64,000 bases of DNA, taken from assembly GCF_014764385.1 (NCBI RefSeq), contig NZ_CP061714.1, positions 2,542,001 to 2,606,000 on the forward strand, written 5' to 3'. A program made the translations under genes and the position numbers. Within the stretch, counting starts at the first letter, position 1. The number at the start of each line of letters is the position of its first letter. The notes under the pieces are model-generated. The model was not told the DNA's origin. It saw nothing but the letters and a program-made list of their open reading frames with translations, and made no database searches. Shown piece by piece: positions 48,096 to 56,464 of the stretch. The DNA comes from Luteimonas sp. MC1825 (GTDB taxonomy: Bacteria; Pseudomonadota; Gammaproteobacteria; Xanthomonadales; Xanthomonadaceae).

Positions 48096-49550
48096 CTAGT
48101 CCACGCGCGCGGCTGCGACCGTCGAGCGCTCCTGCCAGCCGCCACCGAGCACCTTGTACAGGGTGACCCGGTTGCGTTGTTCGGCCATGCGCGTGGCCAC
48201 CAGCGCCTGCTGCGTGGCGTACAGCGCGCGCTGCGCATCCAGCCGCACCAGCGAGCTGTCCAGACCGGCCGCGTGGCGCGCCTGCGCCAGTGATTCGGCG
48301 CGCGTGGCGGCATCAACCAGCGCCTGCTGCGCACGCACCTGGCGGGCCAGCGCGTCCGCCTGCGCCAGCGCATCGGCGACCTCGCGGAAGCCGACCTGGA
48401 TCGCCCTTTCGTACTCCGCAAGCGCGATGTCGCGTTCGGCGGTGGCCACGCCGAGGCCGGCACGCAGGCGTCCGCCCTGGAAGATCGGCAGGTTGACCTG
48501 CGGCATGAAGCTCCAGGCCCTGGTGCCGCTGTCGAACAGACCCGACAGCGCATCGCTGGCCGAGCCGACGCTGCCGGTCAGCGAGATCGACGGAAAGAAC
48601 GCGGCGCGCGCCGCGCCGATGTTGGCGCTGGCGGCATGCAGTCGGTGCTCGGCGGCGATCACGTCGGGCCGGCGCAGCAGTGCTTCCGCCGGCAGTCCCG
48701 CCGGCAGCGCGGTGAGGCCGACCACGGCGCCTGAATCACGCAGCGGCAGCAGCTCGGGCGGCACCGGCGCGCCGGCCAGCAGGTGGAGCGCGTTGCGGTC
48801 CAATGCCACCTGGCCCTGCAGGCGCGCGACATCCGAACGCGTGCCTTCCACCTGGGTGCGCACCTGCTCCACCTCGAGCGCCGACGTGGCGCCCAGCGCC
48901 TGGCGCTGCGCGGTGAGTGACAGCGTGCGCTCGTAGGTCTCCAGCGCGGATTCCGCCAGGCGCAGCTGCTCCTGGTCGGAGGCCAGCGCCAGCCATGCGC
49001 CGACGACTTCGGCTACCAGCGACAGCTGGGTGCTGCGCTGCGCCTCGGCGGTGGCCAGGTATTGCTGCAGCGCCGCCTCGCCAAGGTTGCGCACGCGCCC
49101 GAACAGGTCGAGTTCGAACGCCGCCAGGCCGATGCCCGCGACGTACGACTCGCTGTCGGGCACATCGCCGCCGACGCGCTCCATGGTGGCGCTGGCACCG
49201 AGCGACGGCATGCGGTCGGCACGGCGGATGCCGTACTGCGCGCGCGCGCGCTCGACGTTGAGGATCGCCACGCGCAGGTCGCGGTTGCTGTCCAGCGCCT
49301 GGGCGACGACGGCCTCCAGCGCCGGGTCGGCGAGGAAGTCGCGCCAGCCGACATCGGCCATGGGCAGCGCGGCAATGGCCGGATCGGCCGGCGCGAACGC
49401 GCCGGCCTGGCCCGCGCGCGTGGTCGCGGGCAGCGGCCATTCCACGGGGATCGCGGGTGCGGCGGCGGGGGTGGCCGGCACCAGCGTGGCGCAGCCGGAG
49501 ACCGCCAGCGCGATGGCCAGCGCGAGGCTCGCGTGCAGTGGCTTATGCAT
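48096..49550 (-). CDS. RND efflux outer-membrane channel lipoprotein (NodT/OprM family)
   Basis: Outer-membrane factor of a tripartite efflux pump, 484 residues. The signal ends in a lipobox ([10 protein letters not shown]). Two OEP repeats are visible: [27 protein letters not shown] with LDLFGRVRN, and [35 protein letters not shown] with [16 protein letters not shown]. Its ATG overlaps the pump gene stop by 8 bp. With the adaptor and pump it makes an SmeDEF/TtgABC-type system. Confidence 0.95.
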
Positions 49551-52500
49551 GCTGGTCGACTCCAGTGGCGACGGGTGCGTGCTGCTTGCGGCTGAACAGG
49601 CGGTTGACCACCACGAAGAACAGGGGGATGAAGAACACGCCGAGCAGCGTGCCCACCAGCATGCCGCCCAGCACGCCGGTGCCGATGGCGCGCTGCGCGC
49701 CCGAGCCCGCGCCGCTTGCGATGGCGAGCGGCAGCACGCCGAGGCCGAAGGCCAGCGAGGTCATGATGATCGGGCGCAGCCGGTCACGGACCGCTTGCAT
49801 GGTGGCCTCGATGAGCTCCATGCCCTGCTCCACGTTCGCCTTGGCGAACTCGACGATCAGGATCGCGTTCTTGCTGGTCAGCCCCACCGTGGTGAGCATC
49901 GCCACCTGGAAGTAGATGTCGCGCTCCATGCCGCGCATCGAGTTGGCCAGCACCGCGCCGAGGATGCCCAGCGGCGCCACCAGCAACACCGCGGTCGGCA
50001 CCGTCCAGCTTTCATACAGCGCGGCCAGGCACAGGAACACGATCAGCAATGACAGCGCGTACAGCAGCGGCGTCTGCGAACCCGCCTCACGCTCCTGGTA
50101 GGACAACGCGGTCCACTCGATGCCGAAGCCCGGCGGAAGCTCAGCCGCGAGGCGCTCGATCTCGAGCATCGCGTCGCCCGTAGCCACGCCCGGCGCGGGC
50201 TCGCCCTGGACCTCGACCGCCGATACGCCGTTGTAGCGCTCCAGGCGCGGCGAGCCGAAGTCCCAGTGCGAGCTGGCGAACGCCGAGAACGGCACCATTT
50301 CGCCCTGGTTGTTCTTTACCGACCACAGGCTGAAATCGTCCGGCGTCATGCGGAACTGCGCATCCGACTGCAGGTACACGCGCTTGACGCGGCCGCGGTC
50401 GATGAAGTCGTCGATGTAGGCGCTGCCCCAGGCCGCGGCCAGGGTCGAGTTGATCGCACCCACCGACAGCCCGAGCGCGCTCGCCTTCTCGGTATCGATG
50501 TCGATGCGGAACTGCGGCGTGTCCTCCTGGCCGTTCGGGCGCACCGCCTGCAGCAGCGGGCTCTGGTTGGCGGCGCCGAGCATCTGGTTGCGCGCATTGA
50601 TCAGCGCCTCATGCCCCTGCGCACCGTTGTCCTTGACGAAGAAGGTGTAGCCGGCGCCGATGCCAAGCTCGGGCATGGCGGGCGGCGGAAACACGAAGAT
50701 CTGCGCGTCCTTGACCTGGCTCATCGCGCCCATGCCGCGGCCGGCGAGCGCGAACGCGCCCTCCGACGCCTCCTTGCGCTCGCCCCAGTCGGTGAGCTTC
50801 ACGAACGACATGCCGGCGTTCTGACCCATGCCGGCAAAGCTGAAGCCCTGCACCGAGAACACGGATTCGACGATGTCGGATTCGTTCGCGATGAAGTGGT
50901 CCTCGAGTTCCTTGAGCGCCTCGATCGTGCGCTCCTGGGTGGCGCCGACCGGCGTCTGCACCAGCGCCATCAGCACGCCCTGGTCCTCGTTGGGCAGGAA
51001 CGAACTGGGCAGGCGCACGAACAGCACGCCCATCACCACCACCAGCAGCGCGAACACGGTCATCGAACGCTTCGGGCTGCCGAGCATGCGGCGCACGCCG
51101 CCGCGGTACTTGCCGCTGGTGCGGTCGAAACCGCGGTTGAACCAGCCGAAGAAGCGCCCGGCCAGGCCGGTGCCATGGTGGTCCACGCCCTTCTCGATGG
51201 GCTTCAGCATGGTGGCGCAGAGCGCCGGCGTGAGCACGATCGCCACCACCACCGACAGCAGCATCGCCGACACGATGGTCGCCGAGAACTGCCGGTAGAT
51301 GACGCCGGTGGAGCCGGACATGAAGGCCATCGGCACGAACACCGCCGACAGCACCAGGCCGATGCCGACCAGCGCGCCGGTGATCTGGTCCATGGACTTG
51401 CGCGTGGCCTCGAGCGGCGAGAGTCCTTCCTCGCTCATGATGCGTTCCACGTTCTCGACCACCACGATGGCGTCATCCACCAGCAGTCCGATCGCCAGCA
51501 CCATCGCGAACATGGTCAGCATGTTGATGGAGAAGCCCAGCACCGCGAGCACCGCGAACGTGCCCAGCAGCACCACCGGCACCGCGATCGTCGGGATCAG
51601 CGTGGCGCGGAAGTTCTGCAGGAACAGGTACATCACCAGGAACACCAGCACGATCGCTTCGATCAGCGTGACGACCACGCCCTTGATGGACACCTGCACG
51701 AACGGCGTGGTGTCGAAGGGAATCACCGACACCAGGCCCTCGGGGTAGTACGGCTCGAGTTCGGCGAGCGCCTGCTTCACGCCCGCCGCGGTCTCGATCG
51801 CGTTGGCCCCCGTTGCCAACGAGATCGCCAGGCCGCTGGCCGGCTGGCCGTTGTAGCGGCTGATGAACTCGTAGGTCTCCGAGCCGATCTCCACGCGCGC
51901 CACGTCACCCAGCTTGAGCACCGAACCGTCGGCTTCGGCGCGCACCACCACGTTGCGGAACTGCTCCGGTGTCTGCAGGCGGTCCTGCGCATTGATGGTG
52001 GCATTGAGCTGCTGGCCCTCGACCGACGGCGCGCCGCCCAGCTGGCCGATGGCGACCTGCGCGTTCTGCGCCTGGATGGCAGCAGTCACTTCCGCCACCG
52101 ACAGCGCGTAGGTGTGCAGCTTGTTGGGATCCAGCCAGATGCGCATGGCGTACTTGGCGCCGAACACCTGGGTGGTGCCCACGCCCGGCACGCGGCTGAT
52201 CGGGTCGACGATGTTGGTGCCGATGAAGTCGCCGATGTCGTTGGCGTTCATGCTGCCGTCTTCGGACACGAAGCCGACCACCTGCAGGAAGCTCGACGTC
52301 GACTTGGAGACGTTCACGCCCTGGCGCTGCACGTCCTGCGGCAGCAGCGGCATCGCCAGCTGCAGCTTGTTCTGCACCTGCACCTGGGCGATGTCGGGAT
52401 CGGTGCCGCTGTCGAACGTCAGCGTGATCTGCGCCATGCCGTTGGATGACGACTTCGAGGAGAAATAGATCAGGCCATCGAGGCCCTTCATGTTCTGCTC

Positions 52501-52695
52501 GATGATCTGCGTCACCGAATCCTCGACCACCTTGGCCGACGCGCCCGGATAGGTCGCGCGCACCTCGACCGAAGGCGGCGCCACGGTCGGGTACATCGAG
52601 ATCGGCAACGAGGTCAGCGCGAGCACGCCGGCAAGCATGATGATGATCGCGATGACCCACGCGAAGATGGGGCGATCGATGAAGAAACGAGCCAT
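49543..52695 (-). CDS. RND multidrug efflux pump, inner-membrane permease (HAE1 family)
   Basis: Proton-driven AcrB/SmeE-type transporter, 1050 residues, full length. It begins [27 protein letters not shown]. Proton-relay Asp pair is in [15 protein letters not shown] (about residues 405-408) and the relay Lys in [15 protein letters not shown] (about 935-940). The pore-domain block [17 protein letters not shown] and [16 protein letters not shown] are HAE1-like. AAGGAG lies 6 bases before the ATG. It is separated by 3 bp from the adaptor gene and overlaps the channel gene. Substrates are presumably amphiphilic drugs. Confidence 0.96.
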
Positions 52696-52698
52696 TGC

Positions 52699-53973
52699 TT
52701 ACTCCTTCGAGGCCGAAGCCCCGGCCGCCGGTGCGGTGGCGCCGGAGGAGGCGGGGGTGGCCGCGTCAGCGGCATCGGCATTGGCATTGGCGGTGTCGGC
52801 GGCTGCAGGCGCGGCGATGGCCGGCTGCGCCTGCTTCGCGTCGGCAACGTCCGCGGTCACTTCCACCGCGTCGCCCGGCTTGATCTTCTGCAGGCCGGCG
52901 GTCACCACGCGGTCGCCGGCGGCGAGGCCGTCCTCGACCAGCCAGGCGTCGCCGATGGTCTGGCTCACGCGCACCGGGCGCACGGACACCGTGCCGTCGT
53001 CGCCCACCACCATCGCCGTGGTGTTGCCCTTGGCGTCACGGCCGATGCCACGCTGGGGCACCAGGATCGCGTCGTTGCGCACGCCGGCGCCGACCACCGC
53101 GCGCACGTACATGCCGGGCAGCAGCACCTGGTCGGGGTTGGCGACCTCCACGCGCACCGAGAAGCTGCCGGTGCCAGGATCGACCGAGACTTCCGAGAAC
53201 TTCAGCGTGCCGGGATGCGCGTAGGCCGTGCCGTCCTCGAGCAGGATGGTGACCGGCAGCGACGCGGTGCTTTCCAGCGTGCCGGCGGCCAGCGCCTTGC
53301 GCAGTTGCAGCAGCTCCGCGCTGGTCTGGGTGAGGTCGACGTGGATCGGATCGAGCTGCTGCACCGTGGCCAGCGGCGCGGCCTGGTTGGCGGTGACCAG
53401 CGCGCCCTGGGTAACGCTGGACTTGCCGATGCGGCCGCTGATCGGCGCGGTGATGCGCGCATGGCCGAGCGGGACGTTGGCGGCGTCGAGCGCGGCGCGC
53501 GCGGCACCGACATCGGCCTCGGCCTGCTTGAGCGCGGCCTGGGCGTTGTCGTTGTCCTGGCGGCTGACGGCATCGATCTTGACCAGCTCGGCGGTACGCC
53601 GCGCGGTCAGCTGGGCCGCGGTGCGCGTGGCCTCGGCGCGCGCCAGCTGCGCACGCGCGCTGTTGGCGGCGGCGCGATAGGTCGCGTCATCGAGCTGGTA
53701 CAGCGGCTGGCCGGCTTCCACCAGGGCGCCTTCGGTGAACAGGCGCCTGGCGACCAGGCCATTGACCTGCGGCCGCACCTCGGCCACCAGCCACGCATGC
53801 GTGCGCCCCGGCAGCTCGCGGGTCAGGGTGACCTGCTGCGCGGCGAGGGTGGCAACGGTCACCGCCGGCCTGGGCGCCTGCTGCGGGTCCTGCCCACCAC
53901 CGCAGGCGGCGAGCGCAAGGGCGAGTGCGGCGGAAAGGGGCATCAGGAGGTGGCGACGGCGGTGCTGGGACAT
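52699..53973 (-). CDS. RND efflux periplasmic adaptor (MFP, AcrA-like)
   Basis: Periplasmic adaptor lipoprotein, 424 residues, linking pump and channel. The signal ends ALAAC. It then has the lipoyl/hairpin arrangement: LPGRTHAWLVAEVRPQVNG with KRLF-type block (ARRLFTEGALVEAGQPLYQLD), a coiled-coil hairpin (about residues 95-165), LGHARITAPISGRIGKSSVT, and the beta-barrel LLPGMYVRAVV. The C-terminus is an unusual Ala/Asp-rich tail ending GASASKE. The chosen ATG at 53973 gives the lipoprotein signal; upstream codons in frame overlap the operator. First gene of the efflux operon. Confidence 0.95.
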   Translation of the reverse strand: MSQHRRRHLLMPLSAALALALAACGGGQDPQQAPRPAVTVATLAAQQVTLTRELPGRTHAWLVAEVRPQVNGLVARRLFTEGALVEAGQPLYQLDDATYRAAANSARAQLARAEATRTAAQLTARRTAELVKIDAVSRQDNDNAQAALKQAEADVGAARAALDAANVPLGHARITAPISGRIGKSSVTQGALVTANQAAPLATVQQLDPIHVDLTQTSAELLQLRKALAAGTLESTASLPVTILLEDGTAYAHPGTLKFSEVSVDPGTGSFSVRVEVANPDQVLLPGMYVRAVVGAGVRNDAILVPQRGIGRDAKGNTTAMVVGDDGTVSVRPVRVSQTIGDAWLVEDGLAAGDRVVTAGLQKIKPGDAVEVTADVADAKQAQPAIAAPAAADTANANADAADAATPASSGATAPAAGASASKE

Positions 53974-54069
53974 GGGTCGGCTCGCTTGGCGTGCTGGAAT
54001 GAGGGAAAGCCAGCGCCTGTTCCGCCTCGTTGGTACAGGGCGAAGGGCTGGTCTGAATGGGGACGGCGC

Positions 54070-54099
54070 AATATACAACCATTCATGGATGTATGTAAG
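54070..54099 (-). promoter_or_regulatory. efflux operon promoter overlapped by an operator palindrome
   Basis: On the minus strand CTTACA (54094-54099) and TATATT (54070-54075) form -35/-10 elements with an 18-bp spacer. The spacer holds an inverted repeat ATACAACCAT-TC-ATGGATGTAT (54073-54094, 9 of 10 pairs). It resembles the TtgR/SmeT-type operators in AT-richness and in the ACCAT/ATGxATGTA core. A TetR-family gene begins 45 bp away on the other strand. On the plus strand TACACT (54105-54110) could be the regulator's -10, so one site could control both directions. Confidence 0.7.
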
Positions 54100-54139
54100 T
54101 GGGCTACACTCTCATCTCGCACAGGAGCGTTCAGCCGCC

Positions 54140-54778
54140 ATGGCCAGGAAAACCAAAGAGGAAGCGCTGGTCACGCGCGAGGGCATCCTCGACGCGGCCG
54201 AAGCGTGTTTCCGCGAGCACGGCATGTCGCGCACCAGCCTCGAGGCGATCGCGGTGCGCGCCGGAGTGACCCGCGGCGCGGTCTACTGGCACTTCAAGAA
54301 CAAGACCGACGTGCTGGAGGCGGTGATCAGCCGCGTCACCGTGCCCTTCCTGCACGGGCTGGAGTACGCATCGCGCCCGGAGGGCTCGACGCCGCTGGCC
54401 GACCTCCGCGAAAAGCTGCGCGCCTCGTTTGCGGACGTGGTCGACAAGCCGCACGTGCGCAACGCCATCGAGGTCATCGAGCTGCGCTGCGAGATCAGCG
54501 CCGAGACCACCCAGGTCCACGACCTGCGCCAGGCCGGCTTCCGCAACACCCACGCGCGCATCAATGCCGCCTTCAAGCGCGCCGAGGACCTCGGCCAGCT
54601 GCGCGCCGGCATGAGCGCGCACGCCTGCGCGATGGCCCTGCACTTCATGATCTCGGGCGTGATGCGCGCCTACCTGGTGGATCCGGAGCACGTCGACCTG
54701 CAGCGCGACGGCATGGGCGCCGTGGACCTGGCACTCGGCGCGATGGCCACCGCCGCCGCGCGCCTGCCGCGCGACTGA
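54140..54778 (+). CDS. TetR-family repressor of the efflux operon (AcrR/TtgR/SmeT-like)
   Basis: TetR regulator, 212 residues. The N-terminal HTH is TREGILDAAEACFREHGMSRTSLEAIAVRAGVTRGAVYWHFKNKTDVLEAVI, the exact pattern of the AcrR/TtgR group. The C-terminal ligand-binding domain has LRCEISAETTQVHDLRQAGF-like helices. The ATG at 54140 follows AGGAG by 13 bases. Divergent arrangement with the RND operon and the palindrome at 54073-54094 make it the pump's local repressor; release by hydrophobic effectors would be expected from the family. Confidence 0.94.
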   Translation: MARKTKEEALVTREGILDAAEACFREHGMSRTSLEAIAVRAGVTRGAVYWHFKNKTDVLEAVISRVTVPFLHGLEYASRPEGSTPLADLREKLRASFADVVDKPHVRNAIEVIELRCEISAETTQVHDLRQAGFRNTHARINAAFKRAEDLGQLRAGMSAHACAMALHFMISGVMRAYLVDPEHVDLQRDGMGAVDLALGAMATAAARLPRD

Positions 54779-54804
54779 CCGCAGCTGCTTGCGGCCTCGC
54801 CGCG

Positions 54805-54894
54805 GTGGCCGGGAGGCCTTCGCGGCTTCGCCCCCGGATCCGCCTGGCGGCGGATGCCTCCTCTTTTACTTTCCCGCGAAGGCCTCCCGGCCAC
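54805..54894 (-). repeat. compound hairpin repeat, copy 1 (inverted)
   Basis: Perfect 21-bp inverted repeat (54805-54825 and 54874-54894) enclosing a 48-base loop. Read on the minus strand the loop contains AAAGTAAAAGAGGAGGC, then a small hairpin ATCCGCC-GCCA-GGCGGAT, then CCGGGGG. The same layout occurs on the plus strand at 54981-55077 with different stem sequences. Lies just after the TetR gene, with no reading frame of interest. Probably a chromosomal palindromic repeat or the gene for a structured RNA. Confidence 0.8.
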
Positions 54895-54980
54895 TTCGGG
54901 GCTCGGCGCTGACGGCAGGTACCGAAGAGCAATGCACCAGAACGCGGGTTGTGCTCTGGCGCCACCGCGTACTGCGCGGA

Positions 54981-55077
54981 CCGGGTGCCAAGGCCCTTGA
55001 GGGCAAAGTCAAGGAGGAGGCGATGGCCGCAAGGCCATCGCCGGGGGACATGAGTCCTCAAGGGCCTTGGTACCCGG
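54981..55077 (+). repeat. compound hairpin repeat, copy 2
   Basis: Outer stem 54981-55003 with 55055-55077, 23 pairs of which two are G-T wobbles and the rest Watson-Crick. The loop has AAAGTCAAGGAGGAGGC, an inner hairpin GATGGCC-GCAA-GGCCATC (55022-55039) and CCGGGGG. It shares the single-stranded core with copy 1 (54805-54894, opposite orientation) but the outer and inner stems have other sequences that still pair. The GGAGG in the core is not followed by a convincing reading frame. Confidence 0.8.
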
Positions 55078-55119
55078 CGCCCAATCAGCGCCACGCCTTC
55101 ACTCGACAGGAAAGGGACC

Positions 55120-55152
55120 AAAAAAAAGGCCCACCAGCGACGGTGGGCCTTT
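55120..55152 (-). terminator. rho-independent terminator (strong on minus, weak on plus)
   Basis: Perfect 8-bp stem GGCCCACC-agcgac-GGTGGGCC (55128-55149). On the minus strand it is followed by eight T (A-run 55120-55127 on plus), making a classic terminator 23 bp beyond the stop of the PQQ-type dehydrogenase gene. On the plus strand only TTTGTCTT follows, so it may also act weakly on transcripts crossing the repeat pair. This is the clearest intrinsic terminator in the window. Confidence 0.9.
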
Positions 55153-55171
55153 GTCTTGCAGCGGACCGGAC

Positions 55172-56464
55172 TCAGAGCGCCGGGGTCACGCGCCAGATGG
55201 TGTTGGCCAGGTCGTCGGCGACGATCAGCGCGCCGCGCGGGTCGACGGTCACGCCGACCGGACGGCCACGGGTCTTGCCGTCTTCGCCGCGGAAGCCGTA
55301 AACGAAGTCCACCGGCGGACCCGACGGACGGCCGTTGCTGAAGGGCACGAAGATGACCTTGTAGCCGACCGGGTCGTTGCGGTTCCAGCTGCCGTGCTCA
55401 CCCACGAAGGCACCTTCGGCGAAGCCGGCGCCCATCGTGGCGGTGGAGAAGTCCAGGCCCAGCGCGGCCACGTGCGAGCCGAGGCTGTAGTCCGGCGTGA
55501 TCGCCGCGGCGACCTTTTCCGGGTCCTGCGGACGTACGCGCGGATCGACGTTCTGGCCCCAGTAGCTGTACGGCCAGCCGTAGAACCCACCCTCGCGCAC
55601 CGAAGTCAGGAAGTCGGGCACGAGGTTCGGGCCAAGCTCGTCGCGCTCGTTCACCACCACCCAAAGCTGGCTGGTGGTCGGCTCGATGGCCAGCGCGGTG
55701 GGGTTGCGCAGGCCGGTCGCGTACGGCCGGTGCGCGCCGGTCTGCGCGTCGATTTCCCACACCAGCGCGCGGTCGGCTTCGGCCACCATGCCGCGCTCGG
55801 TGATGTTGCTGTTGGAGCCGATGCCGACGTACAGGAAACGCCCGTCGGCACTCGCCGTCAGCGACTTGGTCCAGTGATGGTTGATCGCCGAAGGCAGGTC
55901 CGCCACCTTGACCGGCGGCGCGCTCGCGCGCACCTGGCCGTCCTGGTAGTCGAACTTCACCAGCGCATCCTGGTTGGCGACAAACAGCGTGTTGCCGATC
56001 AGCGCGAGGCCGTACGGCGCGTTGAGTTCTTCGGCGAACACGCTGCGCTCGTAGTTGCCGTCACCATCGGGGTCGCGCAGCAGCGTCAGGCGGTTGCCGC
56101 TCTTCACCTTGGTATTGCCCTGCGCCTTGATGCGTCCGGCAATCACGTCCTTGGGCTTCAGCTTGCCGGCGTTGCCGCCGCGGCCCTCGGCTACCAGGAT
56201 GTCGCCGTTGGGGAGCACCAGCGTCTGCCGCGGGATGTTGAGCTCGGTGGCGATCGCCTTGATCGCGTAGCCCTGCGGCACGCTCGGCACCAGGTCGCCC
56301 CACTCCGCCGGCTTCGCGATGACCATGTCGGGCATCAGGCCGCGTTCCTGCTTCGGAAGCTCGGGGTTGGCGCCGTACTGCGCAGGGTCCGGATCGCTGC
56401 CGCCGCCACAGGCGCCGAGCAGGGTGACGAGGCCGATGGCCGTGAACAGCTTCAGGTGCTTCAT
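55172..56464 (-). CDS. PQQ-dependent sugar (sorbosone) dehydrogenase-family lipoprotein
   Basis: Six-bladed beta-propeller dehydrogenase-like protein, 430 residues, of the GDH/sorbosone family. The signal MKHLKLFTAIGLVTLLGAC is a lipoprotein signal. Propeller blocks include VLPNGDILVAEGRGGNAG, LNAPYGLALIGNTLFVANQ, TASADGRFLYVGIGSNSN, ATGLRNPTALAIEP, REGGFYGWPYSYWG and GEHGSWNRNDPVGYKVIFVPF. Presumably oxidises sugars or alcohols in the periplasm; PQQ use is from the family and not shown by sequence. Its ATG overlaps the DUF2231 stop (ATGA), and a strong terminator lies behind it. Confidence 0.9.
   Translation of the reverse strand: MKHLKLFTAIGLVTLLGACGGGSDPDPAQYGANPELPKQERGLMPDMVIAKPAEWGDLVPSVPQGYAIKAIATELNIPRQTLVLPNGDILVAEGRGGNAGKLKPKDVIAGRIKAQGNTKVKSGNRLTLLRDPDGDGNYERSVFAEELNAPYGLALIGNTLFVANQDALVKFDYQDGQVRASAPPVKVADLPSAINHHWTKSLTASADGRFLYVGIGSNSNITERGMVAEADRALVWEIDAQTGAHRPYATGLRNPTALAIEPTTSQLWVVVNERDELGPNLVPDFLTSVREGGFYGWPYSYWGQNVDPRVRPQDPEKVAAAITPDYSLGSHVAALGLDFSTATMGAGFAEGAFVGEHGSWNRNDPVGYKVIFVPFSNGRPSGPPVDFVYGFRGEDGKTRGRPVGVTVDPRGALIVADDLANTIWRVTPAL

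Follow-up and report, generated by a model that had tools for sequence, protein, structure and literature searches.

Two repeats at positions 54805-55077 of a 64,000-nt stretch of the Luteimonas sp. MC1825 genome (the window) form an inverted pair that represents an apparently undescribed, widespread and dispersed family. In organization and placement the pairs look like a REP/BIME doublet; in anatomy they are a different, larger family. The fold of the element appears to be selected on one strand. We give about even chances to the reading that this is a REP/BIME-like family of 3'-end repeats that act as folded RNA and are dispersed by some route. An RNA role at 3' ends is favored at that level over service as a single-stranded DNA substrate of transposition, the less probable of the two.

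On its purine-rich strand, the element is a nested hairpin of ~90 nt. An outer stem of 20-24 bp of free sequence encloses an asymmetric, nearly fixed purine internal loop (GAAGTMAAGGAGGA opposite GGGGGACAT), beyond which lies a short inner hairpin. The composite repeat including both copies measures 273 bp in the window, with copy 1 on the minus and copy 2 on the plus strand, as a first-pass annotation of the sequence had placed them. Copy 1 (54805-54894, minus strand; covariance-model match of 61.5 bits) is a subtype B element with a worn core. The 5' arm of its outer stem on the sense strand (54874-54894) is a perfect 21-bp complement of the 3' arm (54805-54825). Between the arms, all on the minus strand, are the left core AAAGTAAAAGAGGAGGC (54856-54872, read 54872-54856; located by core-pattern search), the inner 7-bp hairpin ATCCGCC-GCCA-GGCGGAT (54838-54855) and the right core CCGGGGG (54831-54837, read 54837-54831). 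A spacer of 86 bp (54895-54980) separates copy 1 from copy 2 (54981-55077, plus strand), a subtype A element with a match of 99.9 bits, compared to which copy 1 is a worn copy. In copy 2 the 5' arm (54981-55002) and the 3' arm (55056-55077) form 22 pairs, one of them G-T, and enclose the left core AAAGTCAAGGAGGAGGC (55005-55021; core-pattern search), the inner hairpin GGCGATGGCC-GCAA-GGCCATCGCC (55019-55042) and the right core GGGGGACAT (55043-55051), in which GGGGG (55043-55047) is followed by ACAT. After GGGGG, copy 1 reads CGAAG instead of ACATGAG. The variant right core GGGGGCGAAG replaces GGGGGACATGAG in two B elements of MC1825, window copy 1 (L001, 1441-1546) and one at L015 (1627-1733).

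The first-pass annotation had described outer stems of 21 and 23 bp, with G-T wobbles in copy 2 and with stem sequences that are unrelated yet still pair. The length given for copy 1 is exact, while copy 2 has one pair fewer than stated and a single wobble in its outer stem. Both stems pair, but they do not vary freely: each represents a subtype that recurs, A in copy 2 and B in copy 1. The shared core is present in both copies; it had been written with one variable base too many and correctly reads AAAGTNAANGAGGAGGC. Allowing up to 2 mismatches, the core as first written was found at 0 places in the MC1825 genome (reversed control, 3), whereas the corrected core was found at 30 (reversed control, 1). 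Two of these 30 places (L027 and L028) are without the right core; they were taken as chance and excluded from the alignments of MC1825 copies. With up to 3 mismatches, the corrected core matched the window 3 times, twice exactly, compared to a mean of 0.31 in 100 shuffles, one of which reached 3.

Both copies fold far more stably than expected for their composition, with z-scores of -7.4 (copy 1) and -10.4 (copy 2) and 0 of 200 shuffles equally stable. Covariation was scored in a MAFFT alignment (A1) of elements collected via the left core, the stems and right core lying outside the search patterns. The score was 0.628, compared to 0.164 for shuffles (sd 0.010; 0 of 500 as high) and 0.087-0.118 for six controls in which the partners were slid. 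For the specified structure, 29 of 38 pairs had changed on both sides and 91.1% of the cells were paired. Thus, the proposal of a conserved fold with compensatory changes around a fixed core was borne out. Note that the invariance of the left core in A1 is partly built in, because this core was in the search pattern. Among the elements found by the covariance model that have no exact core, 40 of 45 were examined; 20 of these 40, which include a few opposite-strand matches to true elements, keep GGAGGAGG, 35 keep GGAGG and 35 keep GGGGG. The loop blocks are still the best-conserved stretch in this set. Orthologous elements of close relatives were compared at 380 stem positions: 8 double changes preserve the pair, in 13 cases a single substitution leads to or away from G-T, and in 19 a single substitution breaks or restores pairing. 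One element, in which the CGAAG variant shifts the register, produces 12 of these 19 as an artefact. Some double changes fall at positions that are variable throughout subtype B, so that part of them can be ascribed to gene conversion between copies. ViennaRNA with quadruplexes enabled chose no G-quadruplex in the core of the 10 elements tried.

Selection acting on duplex DNA alone is expected to leave G-T and A-C mismatches in the stems in about equal numbers. A set of 143 exact-core elements, gathered from 78 genomes or records with no covariance model, had 213 G-T against 29 A-C in the stems of the purine-rich strand. Counted per genome or record, 64 were for a G-T excess, 2 against, and 12 were ties. 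The ratio was 61 to 5 in alignment A1 and 97 to 12 in the beta-proteobacterial subset (assigned by record titles). When the test was slid by 1-2 positions, several registers were also biased, in either direction (e.g. 150 to 230, or 306 to 171, the largest). However, in the set that gave 306 to 171 the true register showed a far stronger bias, 120 to 13, and the Watson-Crick level was 78-89% in the true register against 25-38% in the slid ones. The sense strand had a more stable fold than its complement in 141 of the 143 elements. The large excess of G-T over A-C on the purine-rich strand therefore argues that the strand kept folded is the sense strand in single-stranded form. Given that the elements occur in both orientations and at the ends of genes, RNA is the simpler interpretation; it is unproven, since G-T pairs form in single-stranded DNA too.

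The structure (covariance) model R1, built from 42 sequences, gave 28 matches in the MC1825 genome (a single contig), 27 of them full-length, and 43 in its closest relative among the genomes examined (G273). With 15 candidates scored per genome, matches were found in at least 48 of 247 Xanthomonadaceae genomes, MC1825 included, and in 8 of 54 genera. A sample of the class yielded 4 of 369 genomes, three of them Xanthomonadaceae including MC1825, and a second order (that of G382) yielded 13 of 300 genomes in 8 of 135 genera. The first-pass annotation had made its claim depend on further copies with compensatory changes; these occur genome-wide and in the second order. In one search, the 13 of 149 genomes with matches include one chance match (L036, without the right core). 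A pattern scan of named genomes matched at least 120 stretches and gave at least 80 loci. Among the matches listed, the named hosts include Luteimonas, Lysobacter, Stenotrophomonas, Pseudoxanthomonas, Thermomonas and Rhodoferax, with Hydrogenophaga, Variovorax, Rubrivivax, Sulfuritalea and Sulfurisoma as further hosts. Three records titled Bacillus subtilis SK7B5 (L141, L177 and L187) also carry the element; the title looks mislabelled or the assembly contaminated. Viral contigs had 0 exact pattern matches, and blastn with the window pair gave no match in plasmids and phages. No Rfam family reached its gathering threshold in the window and 12 further loci. At E ≤ 10, 501 bases gave 15 weak matches, far below gathering scores, several of them to miRNA hairpin families. 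Skipping-rope RNA, a long-stem family, had no match up to E 10 on 501 bases, provided that the library includes it. A literature search over titles and the beginnings of abstracts, with subscription papers and figures outside its reach, found no published description.

The elements are mostly arranged in head-to-head pairs. Of 79 neighbor pairs within 400 bp, which all differ in sequence although some are orthologous, 66 were head-to-head, with the sense strands pointing apart; the remainder were same-direction (7 and 2) or pointed together (4). The core-to-core gap clusters near 116-122 bases among the 79 pairs and is mostly 140-165 in MC1825 and G273. All 28 recognized pairs in these two genomes are A+B heterodimers, as called by comparison with the stem consensus sequences of both subtypes, and their spacer is partly conserved (17 pairs aligned). 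Together with the siting at gene ends, this arrangement agrees with the REP-like character that had been suggested from the window alone.

With respect to genes, 39 sites in MC1825 and G273 comprised 21 convergent, 13 tandem and 0 divergent gaps, with 5 unclear. The distance from the upstream stop codon to the outer stem was <100 nt in 43 of 55 cases. Note that these counts use script-predicted genes and include orthologous sites of both genomes individually. At the named loci, divergent gaps were avoided (5 of 55 with the element versus 30 of 96 without, p = 0.002), and convergent gaps were not enriched (15 of 55 versus 22 of 96, p = 0.56). The copies therefore sit at gene ends, behind stop codons, a location that the first-pass annotation had proposed to check. 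Siting near stop codons may, however, merely mark where insertions are tolerated. Neighboring genes in 80 loci form clusters of 11, 4, 4 and fewer loci; three loci of the S. maltophilia group adjoin the gene for the ATP synthase A chain.

Some sites differ between close relatives. Of 17 sites in MC1825, 13 are matched by an element at the corresponding position of G273 (12 established by comparing flanks, plus the window's own), three differ from G273, and one holds a partial copy (L088). At one site G273 lacks a 363-bp stretch that includes the pair, and its flanks abut; this clean empty site, the single one of its kind, has no clear target duplication. At a site occupied only in G273, 408 bp stand opposite 6 bp in MC1825. 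The other differing sites have 51 to 624 bp of other DNA in place of the element. Two element-less orthologous sites (L313 and L317) retain, as judged by eye, stretches that resemble the spacer and stem ends of the unit, L317 aligning to the unit over 76 bp at 84%; these are probably decayed copies. In total, 10 site comparisons were made, one of which (L289/L320) matched on one side only and is not among the sites described here. At the window locus of G273, copy 1 is without one arm and without the core. The patchy occurrence (48 of 247 genomes) and the site differences between relatives are accounted for by a mobile element no less well than by a cellular function.

The MC1825 genome has no match to Y1_Tnp, the RAYT domain. 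This domain is present in 35 of the 48 element-bearing genomes and in 169 of the 247 Xanthomonadaceae genomes overall, indicating no enrichment. Among 38 loci around Y1 genes (two places counted twice; flanks of ~1.5-3 kb), model R1 gave three weak matches, with E values of 0.0015 (L247), 0.015 (L364) and 1.7; the two best coincide with GGGGACAG/GGGGTCAG palindromes. In none of the 38 loci does a right core occur with a left core beside the Y1 gene; the single place flagged, in L372, is ~3 kb away from the gene, and its right core is mismatched. No autonomous form of the element was recognized. As a separate observation, Y1 genes of the TIRYT type in L247, L364, L366-L370 and others are commonly ringed by repeats, GGGGTCAG or GGGGACAG, that occur in both orientations and match the published GGGGWSAS motif of the TIRYT pattern as excerpted from PMC3733652.

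Excerpts of PMC3733652 and PMC3116915 describe REP, BIME and REPIN repeats (the RAYT-linked GTAG and CGTC super-families) as dispersed intergenic palindromes that form inverted dimers, whose spacers are often conserved, and that lie mainly between genes in unidirectional or convergent arrangement. The present elements likewise lie mostly between tandem and convergent genes, and in arrangement alone they match REPs and REPINs as inverted doublets (66 of 79 head-to-head). In contrast to REP units, which have 20-40 bp, one hairpin and a GTAG/CGTC tetranucleotide tag, they comprise ~90 nt with two helices, one nested in the other, a purine loop that is two-sided and nearly fixed (conserved blocks GAAGTMAAGGAGGAGGC and GCCGGGGGACAT) and outer stems that differ between subtypes and species. 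They also differ in having no associated RAYT, with no Y1 match in MC1825 and weak matches in the 38 Y1 loci. The TIRs of TIRYTs (TIRtrons), such as families 1152 and 4509 of S. maltophilia K279a, are described in the excerpted text of PMC3733652 as self-complementary repeats at short distance in Stenotrophomonas, with the motif GGGGWSAS. GGGGGACA resembles this motif, whereas GGGGACAT misses its last position, and the elements were not found flanking TIRYT genes; note that the comparison with families 1152 and 4509 rests on their description in that text. GGGGGACAT is similar to GGGGWSAS, which hints at a possible kinship with TIRYTs but does not amount to membership. MITEs (NEMIS/Correia, ERIC, RUP), again as excerpted from PMC3733652, measure 70-300 bp, have inverted-repeat ends, adjoin genes and fold when transcribed. 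The present pairs differ from them by strand-specific nested hairpins in both halves and may also differ in target duplication, of which the one clean site shows no clear sign. Covarying stems around conserved loops are shared with candidate structured RNAs (Rfam; the 104-motif paper, PMC2864571, in excerpt), but the elements are dispersed and paired, and have no Rfam match at gathering score.

Two divergent small RNA genes, with the spacer providing their common promoter and with an AAGGAGG core that binds ribosomes or messages, would account for a stable, covarying and strand-specific fold that carries a Shine-Dalgarno-type word. However, a search of 54750-55200 for sigma-70-type promoters (other promoter types being outside it) gave no match, the three terminator-like matches in this interval fall at 55115-55152 of the minus strand and thus in neither element, and the copies are located behind genes. 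A translation start behind the Shine-Dalgarno-like word is not conserved and was rejected, an ATG following GGAGGAGG within ~10 nt in only 43 of 274 exact-core elements. With one element, moreover, in each direction per pair, the earlier suggestion of a small RNA that touches ribosomes gained no support, and we regard the small RNA gene pair as improbable. Still less probable is that the palindromes are neutral and that template-switch correction and gene conversion between the copies keep them perfect. Long perfect arms and the recurrent variable positions within subtype B speak for such a process, but correction should not favor G-T over A-C on one strand (213 versus 29), and it would not be expected to preserve the unpaired core of worn copies, or a head-to-head arrangement shared by two orders.

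More weight attaches to the view that the repeats are non-autonomous mobile DNA, their hairpins serving as single-stranded DNA ends for an HUH or other transposase, as with REPINs and RAYTs or TIRs and TIRYTs, so that stems and core would be kept for transposition and not for the host. The head-to-head dimer with its partly conserved spacer, the many similar copies per genome, the clean absence of a 363-bp pair-holding stretch from G273 and the 408 bp of G273 opposite 6 bp in MC1825 all fit this view. The same holds for the resemblance of GGGGGACAT to the GGGGWSAS of TIRYT repeats (PMC3733652, in excerpt), for the best two weak matches near Y1 genes, which fall on GGGGACAG/GGGGTCAG palindromes, and for the G-T wobble, which is possible in single-stranded DNA as well. 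On the other hand, MC1825 maintains 27 full-length copies without a Y1_Tnp match, Y1 is not enriched in element-bearing genomes (35/48 versus 169/247), and the 38 Y1 loci gave only three model matches, with no left and right core together beside a Y1 gene. Furthermore, the clean empty site has no clear target duplication, and the largest cluster of neighboring genes accounts for 11 of 80 loci, the next for 4, though a linked mobilizer may exist. We consider mobile DNA of this kind rather unlikely. Slightly better placed, though still tentative, is a new class of structured RNA: an orientation-independent 3'-end device in two proteobacterial orders, made of two different covarying nested hairpins that face outward. 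Transcripts arriving from either side would then always include one sense hairpin, whose nearly invariant purine loop would be read by a conserved protein.

In the preferred reading, that of REP/BIME-like 3'-end repeats acting as folded RNA, a transcript that reads through from either neighboring gene would gain one sense hairpin, from the downstream half of the pair. A pair that offers one sense hairpin from either side would therefore be an orientation-independent 3'-end RNA element. The loop would probably be read by a host protein, and the stem may fend off or channel nucleases, or help to end transcripts, by analogy with what has been proposed for REPs and BIMEs. The unit would spread as a non-autonomous repeat by a route that needs no RAYT in the same genome. 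Although REP-like repeats were recognized decades ago, it is still argued whether they have a role as RNA, a role as DNA or merely persist. Compensatory change combined with a wobble bias on one strand provides a direct sequence test of which single strand stays folded. With its long free stems and fixed loop, the element lends itself to a search for the protein that recognizes repeats of this kind, and the family is suited to testing the effects of paired repeats on converging transcripts.

The pair in the window is flanked by a gene for a TetR-type regulator, with its end at 54778, and by a GSDH-type gene that is transcribed from the opposite side; behind the latter there is a terminator-like stem (55125-55152). 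The two copies themselves were rejected as intrinsic terminators, defined by a GC hairpin and a U-run, the terminator-like matches lying only outside them. The region 49543-54778 contains a gene for an RND efflux pump (ACR_tran match), divergent from the TetR/MAATS-type regulator gene. Judged from its sequence, an upstream minus-strand ORF by the RND gene reads like a periplasmic adaptor, suggestive of an AcrR-AcrAB-like arrangement.
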